Part shown: piece by piece, positions 3,661-9,366 of the stretch
Layout of the letters: the number at the start of each line of letters is the position of its first letter
How positions within the stretch are numbered: position 1 is the stretch's first letter
Source of the DNA: Candidatus Brocadiia bacterium
Lineage (GTDB): Bacteria > Planctomycetota > MHYJ01 > JACQXL01
Assembly (NCBI GenBank): GCA_020062035.1
Contig: JAGUXD010000060.1
Span: forward strand, 1 to 17,862
Reading direction: 5' to 3'
Length of the DNA stretch: 17,862 nucleotides
Translations under genes and position numbers: made by a program
Notes under the pieces: model-generated
Database searches by the model: none
Seen by the model: the letters and a program-made list of their open reading frames with translations, nothing else
What the model was told of the DNA's origin: nothing

Positions 3661-3738
3661 TTCACCGCAGAGACGCCGAGAACGCAGAGGAATAAATAAT
3701 TGTCTTCTTCTCCGCGACCTCTGCGCCTCTGCGGTGAA
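3661..3738. repeat. Inverted repeat of 9-nt GCAGAG-type units
   Basis: The left arm at 3661-3690 starts TTCACCGCAGAG and continues with roughly 9-nt units. The right arm at 3709-3738 is its complement and ends CTCTGCGGTGAA. By hand alignment 24 of 30 positions pair, around an 18-nt AT-rich loop. It lies between the divergent starts of acpS and comEC, so it cannot serve as a terminator for either gene. I recall similar GCAGAGACGC-type repeats from other bacterial genomes but cannot verify that here. Confidence 0.85.
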
Positions 3739-3789: not shown

Positions 3790-3797
3790 AACCTTTG

Positions 3798-6389
3798 ATG
3801 AAAGATAGTACCATCCTACCTCGTCCTTTTTTTGCTATAGCAGTTGCTTTCATTAGCGGGATTGTATTATCGGATTATTTGCTTTGCCGTGTTTCTTCAG
3901 CCATATTGGTAAAAACGATTCTCTTTATTTCCTCTGCGGTTATTTTGCTCTTTATTAGTTGTCAGATTATTAAGACATCTCGTCAGACGGTTCTGCCTGA
4001 TATTTTTTTGATAATACTCTGTTTGCTCGGCGGCTCATTTCGGCTTTTAATCTCCAATAATTTACAGGGAAACCATATTGCTAAATTCCAATCAAACGAT
4101 GTGCCGGTTTATCTGGAAGGAGTTGTAATAAAAAAGCCAATATATTACCAACCAAGAAAGAACGAATTTTTCCCTGATGATAACAACACAAAGAGCGGTT
4201 ATTTTATAATCAAAGCCAGAAGGATTTCCTGGGCTGATGAGACATCATCGGTATCAGGTAAGGTGAGAGTGAGTTTTTATGGCTGGAAGTCCGTAGAGAT
4301 ATTAGATAATATCCGATATGGTGTATCTATTCGTATTCTTGGCAGGGTCTATTCGCCTCGCGCACCAACCAATCCCGCAGAAAAGGATTATTCTAAATAT
4401 CTCAAGCGAGAGGGTATTTACAAGACAATCAGGATAAAAAGCCCGGAGCATTTGACATTTCTAAAATCAGATAAACAAATCTCATTATGGAGTTTTTTAG
4501 AAACCATCAGAGATTTCCTGAGCCAGCAATCAAGAAAACACTTCAGCCCTGAGCATTCAAGTTTTCTACAAGGAATCCTGTTGGGCGAGCGAGATACTTT
4601 TCCCGCGGATTTAGAAACCAAGTTTATGCGTACAGGCACCATTCACTATCTCACAGTAAGCGGCTTACATTTAGCGATGTTTATCGCTTTTATGTTTTTT
4701 ATCCTCTCCATTGCAGGGATTAAAGACAGAGTCAGGGCAATTTCTCTTATTGCGATTGCCTTGTTTTACGCATTACTTACCGGTCTCGGCACCCCTGTTA
4801 CCAGGGCGTTAATCATTGTAACTATATACCTCTCGGCAGAGGTATTTAACAGGAAATCAAACAGTATCAATTCGCTTTCCTTATCCGCTTTACTTATTAC
4901 ATTGTATAACCCCAATGAAGTTTTTAGTGTCGGCTTTCAACTCTCTTTTCTCTCGGTTTTGTCTATTATTACCTTCATTCCTATTCTTACTGGCTTACTT
5001 AAAAGAGGAACCACAGATAATTATCTGCCTTCTATTATTCCGCAGAGTATTTTTTACTGGCTATTTTTAATCTCACGAAAATATCTCCTTAATGCAATTG
5101 CACTATCAATTAGCGTTTGGTTCGGAATCTTTCTCATCATCCTCCATCAGTTTAATATCATCACACCTGTTGTTGTTTTAGCCAACCTTATCCTCTTGCC
5201 GATTATCTTTTTCATAATGGTGGCAGGTTTTATTCTACTACCACTTCTCTCATTAGATATTTATTCCTATCTTGTACCATTTGAATCACTCTTGGTAAAA
5301 ATATTAGATGCAATTGTAGGTGGATTAGAAAAAATTCCGTTCGGCTATTTTTATCTGCCGGATATTCCGGTTGTGTTTATCTGGGTTTTCTATTTGGGCT
5401 TCTTCTTATATCTTATCAGGCATCATCTTAAATTCTTCAGGCTCAGATATTTCGTCGGGTTGGTTGTTATATTTGTATTCGGATTTTTTATCTATCTTGT
5501 CAGCCAGCAGAGATATTGCAAAACAGACGGCTTATTTTTAACAATGCTGGATGTCAAACAAGGAGCGGCTTTTGTTATCCAGACACCTGAGCGCAAAACG
5601 CTCATTTACGATGCCGGCACTATCGGAGTCCGTGATGTCGGAGAACAAGTCATCGCACCATTCTTATGGAAAAAAGGCATCACCACAATAGATTATCTTA
5701 TTCTCTCTCATTCCCACTTAGACCACATTAACGGTGTCAAATCACTCTCGGAACGATTCAGAATTAAAAAGGTTATCAGCAGTCCATACTTCTCAGATAA
5801 ACGCATTTCTTTCTTATCGCACAATAAGATACCGATTGAACGTGTTTCTAAAAGCAATAAAATATACTCTGAGCCGAATATGTCTCTTGATATTCTGGGA
5901 CCGCCTGGAAATCTTACCCAAACACATAGACAATATGAAGAAAATGACCTTTCTCTTGTTCTAAAAATTGCTTATAAAGACAAATCAATTATTTTAGCAG
6001 GGGACATACAGGCAAACGGGATTGAATGGTTGATTCATAACATGGATATAGGTGTCAGTGCAGATGTTTTTCAGATTCCTCATCACGGTCTTTCTATTAA
6101 AACAGATAAAAAATCTCTATTAGGTTCGTCCCGTCTTCAGCGGGACCCACTGCAAGCAAGTAAATCTTACATAGAAGAACTACTTATTCGGATTAATCCA
6201 AAATATGTTTTGATAAATGCAGACGGTAGCAAGATAGATGATGATATTTTAGAGACCTGCCAAAAGATGAATATAGAGATACTCTCAAATCACCGCTATG
6301 GAGCCGTGACCATAAAAATAAAAGATAAAATAGAGGTAGAAAATTTCCTCTCTGATGCTGAAATTATTCAGGAGGCCTATACGGAATAA
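3798..6389 (+). CDS. comEC: ComEC/Rec2-family DNA uptake channel
   Basis: An 863-residue polytopic membrane protein of the ComEC/Rec2 family, the channel that carries single-stranded DNA across the inner membrane in natural competence. It has N-terminal membrane helices, then a soluble domain to about residue 230. The competence domain follows, with GILLGERDTF from G259, GTIHYLTVSGLHL near 280-295 and GLGTPVTRAL, and then many more membrane segments. A C-terminal metallo-beta-lactamase domain starts near residue 575 (MLDVKQGAAFVI). Its metal motif is complete, H638-S-H640-L-D642-H643, with H762-H763-G764 further on. After HHG, about 17 residues appear extra compared with the family and correspond to a 51-bp repeat-flanked insert. 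The ATG at 3798 is preceded directly by an in-frame TTG at 3795; either could initiate. No comEA or pilus gene is in the window. Confidence 0.93.
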   Translation: MKDSTILPRPFFAIAVAFISGIVLSDYLLCRVSSAILVKTILFISSAVILLFISCQIIKTSRQTVLPDIFLIILCLLGGSFRLLISNNLQGNHIAKFQSNDVPVYLEGVVIKKPIYYQPRKNEFFPDDNNTKSGYFIIKARRISWADETSSVSGKVRVSFYGWKSVEILDNIRYGVSIRILGRVYSPRAPTNPAEKDYSKYLKREGIYKTIRIKSPEHLTFLKSDKQISLWSFLETIRDFLSQQSRKHFSPEHSSFLQGILLGERDTFPADLETKFMRTGTIHYLTVSGLHLAMFIAFMFFILSIAGIKDRVRAISLIAIALFYALLTGLGTPVTRALIIVTIYLSAEVFNRKSNSINSLSLSALLITLYNPNEVFSVGFQLSFLSVLSIITFIPILTGLLKRGTTDNYLPSIIPQSIFYWLFLISRKYLLNAIALSISVWFGIFLIILHQFNIITPVVVLANLILLPIIFFIMVAGFILLPLLSLDIYSYLVPFESLLVKILDAIVGGLEKIPFGYFYLPDIPVVFIWVFYLGFFLYLIRHHLKFFRLRYFVGLVVIFVFGFFIYLVSQQRYCKTDGLFLTMLDVKQGAAFVIQTPERKTLIYDAGTIGVRDVGEQVIAPFLWKKGITTIDYLILSHSHLDHINGVKSLSERFRIKKVISSPYFSDKRISFLSHNKIPIERVSKSNKIYSEPNMSLDILGPPGNLTQTHRQYEENDLSLVLKIAYKDKSIILAGDIQANGIEWLIHNMDIGVSADVFQIPHHGLSIKTDKKSLLGSSRLQRDPLQASKSYIEELLIRINPKYVLINADGSKIDDDILETCQKMNIEILSNHRYGAVTIKIKDKIEVENFLSDAEIIQEAYTE
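6111..6161 (+). repeat. 51-bp in-frame insert in comEC with a palindrome and flanking direct repeats
   Basis: AAATCT occurs at 6111-6116 and again at 6162-6167, exactly 51 nt (17 codons) apart. Between them is a hairpin, GTCCCG (6128-6133), loop TCTTCAG, CGGGAC (6141-6146). The encoded residues (about 772-788) fall between HHG and EELLIRINPKYVLIN, where I recall other ComEC proteins having no such stretch. The direct repeats and hairpin are seen; that the segment was inserted is inferred. Confidence 0.6.
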
Positions 6390-8408: not shown

Positions 8409-9366
8409 TGAGCGCCGCACCTTTTCGTAAGTTGTCCGAGACAATCCAGAGATTTATGCCGTTCTTTACTGTCGGGTCTTTGCGGATTCTGCCTACATAT
8501 ACATCGTCTTTACCAGCCACATCAATCGGCATCGGATAAATCCCTTCTTGTGGATTATCCATTACCTTAATACCCTTGGTTTTACCTAATAATCTTCTAA
8601 CTGTCGCAACTGTTATTGGTTTATCTGTTTCAATATTTACTGATTCGCTATGACCGCAATAGACCGGTATCCGCACGCAGGTTGTGGTTATTTTTATAGA
8701 ATAATCATTGAGTATTTTGAGGGACTCCCGTATCATTTTGGATTCTTCAGCGGTGTAGTCATCTGAACCAAAGGAGTCAATCTGGGGGATAGCATTGAAG
8801 GCATACCAATTGCGAATTGAGAATTGCGAACTAGGAATTTTAGATTTAATCTGTTTCTCCATCTGTTGTATGGCTTTTAATCCGGCGCCAGAGACAGATT
8901 GATAAGTGGAAACGATTACCCTTTTTACCCTGAAATAGTCGTGCAATGGTTTTAGAACCATCACCAGCGGAATAGTAGAGCAATTGGGACTTGCGATTAT
9001 ACCTTTATGTCTTTTAATAGCATCAGGATTTACTTCCGGAACAACTAATGGAACATCTTTATCCATCCTGAAAGCATTTGATTTATCAATTACAATCGCC
9101 CTGTTCTGGATAGCAAGAGGCGCACATTTTTTGCTTATCCTGCTATCCACCGCGAAAAAAGCAATATCTATATCTTTGAATCCGTCTCTTCTTAACTCTT
9201 GAACCTTGAACCTTGAACCTTTGAACTTGAGTGAACTGCCTGATGAGCCTGCAGAAGCGAATAAACGCAATTCATTTACAGGGAACTTACGTTCTTCTAA
9301 TACCTTTAGTAATTCTAATCCGACTATGCCGGTTCCACCAACAATTGCTATGTTATATTTACTCAT
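8374..9366 (-). CDS. asd: Aspartate-semialdehyde dehydrogenase
   Basis: A 330-residue aspartate-semialdehyde dehydrogenase, which reduces beta-aspartyl phosphate with NADPH on the way to lysine/diaminopimelate, threonine and methionine. Landmarks are IVGGTGIVGLELL at 8-20 (NADP-binding), SPNCSTIPLV with the catalytic C129, STYQSVSGAG (Q156), NAIPQIDSF at 191-199, and CVRIPVYCGHSESVN with substrate-binding R232 and catalytic H239. AAAGG lies about 6 nt before the ATG at 9366, which is 11 nt after the endonuclease Q stop. mnmG begins inside its 3' end. Two short-unit DNA repeats are embedded in the coding sequence, at residues 47-56 and 180-187. Both fall in variable loops, so the enzyme is probably intact. 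Confidence 0.96.
   Translation of the reverse strand: MSKYNIAIVGGTGIVGLELLKVLEERKFPVNELRLFASAGSSGSSLKFKGSRFKVQELRRDGFKDIDIAFFAVDSRISKKCAPLAIQNRAIVIDKSNAFRMDKDVPLVVPEVNPDAIKRHKGIIASPNCSTIPLVMVLKPLHDYFRVKRVIVSTYQSVSGAGLKAIQQMEKQIKSKIPSSQFSIRNWYAFNAIPQIDSFGSDDYTAEESKMIRESLKILNDYSIKITTTCVRIPVYCGHSESVNIETDKPITVATVRRLLGKTKGIKVMDNPQEGIYPMPIDVAGKDDVYVGRIRKDPTVKNGINLWIVSDNLRKGAALNAVQIAESLIF
8808..8830. repeat. Direct repeat AATTGCGAA, 14-nt period, inside asd
   Basis: AATTGCGAA occurs at 8808-8816 and 8822-8830, with partial extension beyond (GGAATTTT). It encodes part of a loop (SSQFSIRNW, residues 179-187) just before the conserved NAIPQIDSF. That loop varies in length among aspartate-semialdehyde dehydrogenases I recall. 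Confidence 0.7.
9199..9227. repeat. Heptanucleotide tandem TTGAACC inside asd
   Basis: Three exact copies of TTGAACC run from 9199 to 9219, followed by one extra T and a degenerate copy TTGAACT (9221-9227). The repeat is read in three frames in turn and encodes part of FKGSRFKVQEL (residues 48-58), a segment whose length looks normal for the family. Confidence 0.8.

Follow-up and report, generated by a model that had tools for sequence, protein, structure and literature searches.

How did a hairpin come to lie within the open reading frame of comEC, and is it the trace of something that moves? The gene in question stands on a planctomycete contig of 17,862 nucleotides (JAGUXD010000060.1; C66 in our numbering), which we refer to as the window. 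It belongs to a 64%-complete source assembly of 1.19 Mb in 211 contigs. The initial annotation of the window had pointed to the hairpin GTCCCG-TCTTCAG-CGGGAC between two copies of AAATCT 51 nt apart, and had explained the arrangement as a small mobile palindrome tolerated inside a protein. Both the hairpin (GTCCCGTCTTCAGCGGGAC, positions 6128 to 6146 of the forward strand) and the two hexamers are present as described. The explanation itself has proved largely right, in that the palindrome is repeated genome-wide, occurs in frame in genes and is missing from relatives at the comEC site, while its movement is something we infer. With a probability of about 0.7, we consider the comEC hairpin to be a decayed copy of a 16-bp palindrome, TCCCGCTNNAGCGGGA, that has spread through this genome and through those of a few relatives.

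A dispersed 16-bp palindrome

A search of the source genome with the palindrome TCCCGCTGAAGCGGGA at up to two mismatches yielded 53 forward and 52 reverse matches, and the reversed-pattern control none on either strand. The loci that we fetched (L-numbers) hold 66 distinct copies at this threshold, 55 of which are non-redundant once copies whose flanks are short or alike have been set aside. Strong conservation across the columns of the 66 copies is that of the 16-mer (exact unit, TCCCGCTTCAGCGGGA) and ends one base outside it, with A or G at base -1 in 94% of the copies and T or C at base +16 in 93%. Any bias further out is weak (among 110 flanks, A is found at -2 in 40% and is scarce at -3, with 12%). 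Bases -1 and +16 are complementary in 24 of the 55 non-redundant copies, where 25 are expected; their pairing is no better than chance, and we therefore take the unit to be 16 bp long and not a perfect palindrome of 18 bp.

The comEC hairpin corresponds to the dispersed palindrome RTCCCGCTNNAGCGGGAY plus one T. Compared with the 66 copies, its 17-bp core, TCCCG(T)CTTCAGCGGGA (6129 to 6145, forward strand), is a one-base variant of the unit, with a single T inserted. The full 19-mer pattern of the hairpin has no second match in the genome at up to two mismatches and three more at three mismatches. As a DNA fold it is better than most: when the 62-nt region was shuffled 200 times, 3 of the shuffles folded equally well (z -2.4). 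An exact copy of the 19-mer is also found in a viral contig of IMG/VR (L137:1241-1259), which may be chance.

An ordinary variable ComEC loop that happens to contain a GC-rich hairpin, with no element behind it, would account for some of these observations. The length of this loop does vary between relatives, the 51-bp block delimited by the hexamers is unique and hexamer pairs of this type are not rare. Moreover, perfect stems in a 214,579-bp sample of the genome are barely more frequent than in shuffled sequence (7 bp, 110 versus 92; 8 bp, 34 versus 26). Longer ones in sample C1-C40, which was chosen irrespective of palindromes, are few but exceed the shuffled sequence (9 bp, 12 versus 6.3; 10 bp, 5 versus 1.7). 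Moreover, the comEC 17-mer is one inserted base away from a 16-mer with 66 copies and a clean control, and we estimate that a match of such closeness would be expected about 0.01 times per genome. We thus hold mere chance to be quite unlikely.

Very improbable, in our view, is a functional signal in the form of an intrinsic terminator, a structured RNA or a DNA-uptake sequence. Hairpins of this size are able to terminate transcription, the host gene comEC serves DNA uptake, and the half-site TCCCGCT occurs 39 times in C1-C40, 23 times outside palindromes, where 7.7 occurrences are expected from base composition. However, this seven-mer ranks only fifth among the 105 composed of the same letters (top count 50, median 14), the column table of the copies contains no T-run behind them of the kind that marks a terminator, nothing in the window matches Rfam at gathering scores, and copies occur inside open frames.

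The dispersed palindrome is part of a broader assortment in its own genome. Palindromes of the form YCCCG..CGGGR are found at 81 places and in 37 sequence types, counted in sequence that was partly selected for palindromes, and nested and merged forms occur as well. At ten loci (L062, L066, L067, L069, L070, L074, L076, L082, L088 and L092) the palindrome follows a larger repeat ending in '...AGTCCTTGNTTTAGATAA'; L066 and L067 represent one place. As these loci stand at or near contig ends, the larger repeat may break the assembly. Within the partial coverage of our literature search, we found neither the palindrome sequences of this family nor a report on such repeats in this lineage.

Copies inside genes and in related genomes

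comEC (3795 to 6389, forward strand) encodes 864 amino acids in a frame that is open throughout, and Pfam recognises Competence (E 5e-47), DUF4131 and Lactamase_B in its product. The HHG codons of the metallo-beta-lactamase-like domain (6081 to 6089, forward strand) lie just 5' of the extra segment; H763, H764 and G765 are invariant in the five ComEC sequences that we aligned, and the additional codons start right behind PHHG (residues 762-765). Alignment with the solved ComEC domain 9ic4 reaches only just past HHG. Among 58 related genomes (G-numbers), 43 matched the ComEC C-terminal domain, and 29 of the corresponding loci were fetched for a comparison of the site. The extra segment is missing from all 28 that span it; the 29th (L020) ends short. 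The alignment with relatives that the initial annotation had proposed consequently bears out the uniqueness of these residues among the loci compared. Its statement that 17 codons had been added behind HHG stands as far as extra residues in an open frame are concerned, the number 17 being approximate: the gap opposite the segment amounts to 14 residues against G002 and 15 against G001, the same-family genomes with a full comEC, and to 22 against both G005 and G006. The lineage-specific segment, LLGSSRLQRDPLQASKS (6111 to 6167, forward strand), accordingly comprises 14-17 residues, and only its middle third is the dispersed repeat. The closest named relatives of this ComEC, retrieved with an alignment as query, are metagenome-assembled genomes of Planctomycetota (L138, L139); the single ComEC sequence as query matched no named genome.

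Other genes carry the palindrome in frame as well. At least 40 open codons flank the unit on both sides in 17 of the 66 copies, whereas this holds for 2034 of 3000 positions picked at random from these loci (68%), and two further copies would have an open frame only without the unit. The copies are depleted in genes, yet present there. Several reading frames and both strands are used among the copies, giving peptides such as SRFSG, PLKRD, PAKAG and PLQRD. We recorded 33 distinct open reading frames (ORFs) of at least 85 amino acids over a copy (34 rows) and scanned 30 of them with Pfam; 28 have a match at E 0.001, and 25 exceed the curated cut-off. MurF, TruA, Mfd, DHquinase, an ACD-type ATP-grasp protein, an M28 peptidase and PurH are among the products, with AccA carrying its copy at the extreme end; some of these names were assigned from the Pfam family or from solved relatives, and some copies at ORF ends may fall outside the true gene. 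Orthologues from same-family genomes lack the palindrome at the same site in TruA (G001, G002, G003), in the ACD protein (G001, G002), in MurF (G001) and in ComEC (G001, G002). In the case of the GDT1-like gene at L056:1407-1712, the frame is apparently broken 3' of an in-frame copy, which may reflect a pseudogene or an assembly error; a GDT1 query of seven relatives returned no match.

Relatives carry palindromic inserts of other kinds in some of these proteins. The ComEC proteins of G001 (L017) and G002 (L016) have larger in-frame ones elsewhere in the protein, one of them CTCTCCCCTTAGGGGAGAG-centred in a linker and one a GC-rich multi-hairpin before the channel domain. In the MurF protein of G003 (L274), the loop that carries the 16-bp unit in the source genome has a GC-rich multi-hairpin in-frame insert about 20 residues long. 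Since these relatives thus possess palindromic inserts of their own, palindromes seem to be accepted into proteins in this lineage.

When the 58 relatives and the source genome were searched on both strands, four of the 59 genomes were rich in the palindrome, namely the source genome (27 matches), G002 (23), G003 (22) and G008 (26), and all the remaining ones had at most one match, which is the control level. Perfect 18-mers are of the GAA type in eight of eight cases in G003, four of which stand at contig starts and are perhaps not independent, and of the AAA type in five of five cases in G002. This difference suggests that the expansions in these two genomes occurred separately.

Flanks, unfilled sites and a possible mode of spread

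The two copies of AAATCT (6111 to 6116 and 6162 to 6167, forward strand) had been read by the initial annotation as the duplicated target of a 51-bp mobile palindrome resembling those of Rickettsia. In-frame position, a hexamer on both sides and an internal palindrome do speak for an element of this length. The hexamers, however, do not adjoin the hairpin but stand 11 and 15 bp away from it. With flanks of 17 bp on the left and 21 bp on the right, as at comEC, a shared 6-mer is found at 1112 of 17805 positions of the window (6.2%; 4.6% and 8.5% for flanks of 17 and 21 bp, respectively), and comEC alone contains 18 six-mer repeats at spacings of 45-57, five of them at exactly 51. Because shared 6-mers are this common, the pair is weak evidence for an insertion and probably a coincidence. 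The family gives the same answer: with boundaries shifted by 0-3 bp and repeat lengths of 2-9, no perfect 6-bp repeat adjoins any of the 55 non-redundant copies, whichever of the four assumed boundaries is taken. There is a slight excess of shorter repeats, with 4 bp beside the 16-mer in two of 55 copies (L056, CGAA; L093, CTAA; 0.3 expected) and 5 bp one base further out in another two (L061, AATTC; L107, AATCC; 0.2 expected). The 51-bp block itself occurs once in the 64%-complete assembly in a search up to E 10, which otherwise returned three partial matches over the hairpin. The initial annotation had named a single occurrence of the 51 bp as a refutation; this applies to the block but not to the core, which is repeated. 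An element of 51 bp with a 6-bp target-site duplication is for these reasons extremely improbable. The target-site duplication that characterises a miniature inverted-repeat transposable element, or another derivative of a DNA transposon, is likewise missing at 6 bp throughout the 55 copies.

Unfilled sites offer a second view on insertion. The intergenic larger repeat TTCACCGCAGAGACGC... at 3662 to 3738 of the window is an inverted repeat without the palindrome, and in L055 a copy of this repeat is interrupted by the palindrome (86% identity over 77 columns, E 6e-16). Given this interruption, positions 3662 to 3738 represent a site left unfilled within the same genome. The flanks of L052:519 can be aligned in the same way across the join with L254 (E 3e-11). 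As alignments, only the unfilled sites of L055 and L052 are strong. Systematic counts cover 63 of the 66 copies, three being too close to a contig end. When 9 of 13 matches are required on each side, 6 of 63 copies have an unfilled site, compared with 28 of 1036 control blocks; the stricter counts (2 of 63 versus 10 of 1036 at 10 of 13; 1 of 63 versus 3 of 1036 at 11 of 13) are too few to judge. In a laxer count the copies (8 of 63) are not separated from control blocks in their vicinity (7 of 61 and 7 of 59), and blocks further off gave 0-3.

Several of our observations weigh against the view that the comEC hairpin is a decayed copy of a spreading palindrome. The controlled excess of unfilled sites is modest and falls below the impression given by an uncontrolled listing, no movement of a palindrome was observed, and several copies belong to one larger repeat and hence have no separate origin. 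The comEC copy is an imperfect family member on account of its extra T, and about eight extra ComEC residues are left over once the hairpin is discounted. In none of five in-gene cases did we see the clean gain of six residues that 18 nt would provide: the net gain is +14 or +15 in comEC, +3 in TruA relative to G001-G003, 0 in the ACD protein relative to G001 and +3 relative to G002, about +2 in MurF and +1 residue in a thiolase. Replacement or later trimming has therefore to be assumed. For the copies in the thiolase (L089) and in a penicillin-binding protein (L096), alignments to solved structures indicate almost no net gain, and the in-gene copies with two mismatches may consequently include some convergent coding sequence. 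Comparisons of PurH (L107), DHquinase (L057), the M28 peptidase (L058) and MurF (L054) with solved structures did not measure the gain more sharply.

The single-strand mechanism of Y1 transposases leaves no target duplication, and the flanks of our copies fit such a mechanism. One might accordingly think of a repetitive extragenic palindromic (REP) element, possibly a CGTC one or one spread by a hairpin-recognising REP-associated tyrosine transposase (RAYT, a Y1 tyrosine transposase), although we judge this to be unlikely. Y1 genes are present in all eight relatives G001-G008, with two YCCCG..CGGGR palindromes at most 165 bp upstream of the Y1 gene in G007 and one about 750 bp upstream in G002. 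REPs are described in passages of PMC3733652 as small palindromes that enter genes as well, and the comEC copy, which begins with CGTC and continues to CCCA, comes near the CGTC head and CCA tail given there. Across the family, however, these tags are missing: only 6 of the 55 copies start with CGTC, CCA follows in none of these six, and GTAG occurs in none of 110 flanks. Y1 genes are present alike in palindrome-rich (G002, G003, G008) and palindrome-poor relatives (G001, G004-G007), the 16-bp unit was seen at none of the four Y1 loci that we read, and no Y1_Tnp gene was found in the 64%-complete source assembly, a finding that also counts against our own reading. The distribution of Y1 genes in relation to palindrome abundance does not support a link to RAYT. 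At L280:132-656 of G007, a Y1 transposase gene lies between two nearly identical CGCCTGTAAAGGCG hairpins, which we take to be ordinary ends of the IS200/IS605-like type.

The data lend themselves better to the reading of the hairpin as a decayed member of the 16-bp family, for which we envisage the following course of events. A copy of the palindrome would have landed in the length-variable loop behind HHG of the nuclease-like domain of ComEC, and it would persist there since the overall change in length left the frame intact and additional residues are tolerated in this loop. The bare unit would insert at a purine/pyrimidine step without duplicating its target. As 16 cannot be divided by three, and comEC has one extra T, copies within genes would survive only once small neighbouring length changes had restored the frame. 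Sixteen base pairs have no coding capacity and barely room for anything beyond the hairpin. Copying may act on a single-stranded hairpin, as HUH/Y1 transposases or template switching during replication could do, a mode that the lack of a target duplication would suit. One step further, and in our opinion possible but doubtful, bare YCCCG..CGGGR hairpins of 16-18 nt with many different interiors might be copied by virtue of their structure alone, with neither tag nor terminal sequence nor target duplication. If so, few known movers would be smaller, and their in-frame copies would create new peptide loops in housekeeping proteins such as ComEC, TruA, MurF and Mfd. If the 16-bp unit does move, it would come near the lower size limit of mobile things, and the lack of tag and duplication would point to copying that reads hairpins and not sequences. 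With the in-frame copies, an uncultured planctomycete lineage offers naturally occurring loop insertions in its housekeeping proteins, and the different dominant variants of related genomes will allow gain and loss to be tested from sequence alone once closer strains exist.

Two other repeats of the window deserve mention. The initial annotation had suspected that short repeats in asd stem from the same process. Those we examined, at approximately 9195 to 9228 and probably the ones it had meant, form a short GTTCAAG tandem that codes for KFKGSRFKVQ, a different thing unrelated to the palindrome. At 2125 to 2199 there is an intergenic inverted repeat with 35-nt arms that are 83% complementary and rich in GAAC words.

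Comparison with known systems

Closest in kind to the comEC palindrome family are REPs and the small dispersed repeats (SDRs) of cyanobacteria, the latter reportedly described by Elhai et al. in Genome Research in 2008. A more distant parallel is provided by the GC clusters of yeast mitochondrial DNA, GC-rich palindromes that, according to the relevant passages of PMC4478555, proliferate and merge. Nested and merged palindromes occur here as well, but GC clusters have mitochondrial hosts, and GC42 has an AG target-site mark, whereas our copies have no duplication.

The likeness to the Rickettsia palindromic elements (RPEs) drawn by the initial annotation extends to in-frame presence in unrelated genes, as the 17 copies well inside open frames and the Pfam-named genes demonstrate. 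RPEs are characterised in PMC10969869 as palindromic repeats of about 150 bp that lie in frame in unrelated protein genes and encode a conserved peptide. A repeat of about 100-150 bp is not what we find, since conservation here covers 16-18 bp and the 51-bp block is single, and there is no conserved peptide, since reading frame and strand differ between copies. Membership in this class is hence unsupported. Not all RPEs are of one size, given that RPE-4 and RPE-6 appear as short CGTC-tagged REPs in passages of PMC3733652, and size alone therefore does not decide the assignment.

With REPs, described in the same passages as very short palindromes of 20-40 bp that form GTAG and CGTC superfamilies and have some copies in genes (PMC3733652), the family shares the short palindrome, its dispersal in many copies and its occasional position in genes; at the ends, only the comEC copy resembles a CGTC REP. 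It differs in having no common GTAG or CGTC tag or tail and in its length of 16 bp. REPs of the GTAG type come with a RAYT gene; here, no Y1_Tnp was found in the 64%-complete source assembly, and the eight relatives G001-G008 possess Y1 whatever their palindrome count. CGTC REPs are stated there to have no dedicated transposase (PMC3733652).

SDRs, known to us from passages that cite them (PMC2884548; PMC4390886; a further passage in PMC3116915), are nearest in size. Their units of about 20 bp occur in various copy numbers and are possibly mobile (PMC2884548). Likewise, many small units are dispersed here, with 66 copies of 16-18 bp, slightly shorter than the 20-30 bp or so of SDRs. The phylum is another one, the sequence is assumed to be so too, and SDRs are called tandemly repeated in that passage (PMC2884548), whereas our copies are non-tandem. 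SDR5 is reported as precisely inserted within a HIP1 site (PMC4390886); in the planctomycete family, the observations that bear on a defined target are the R/Y step at the ends of the unit and the unfilled sites, of which two are strong and several weak.

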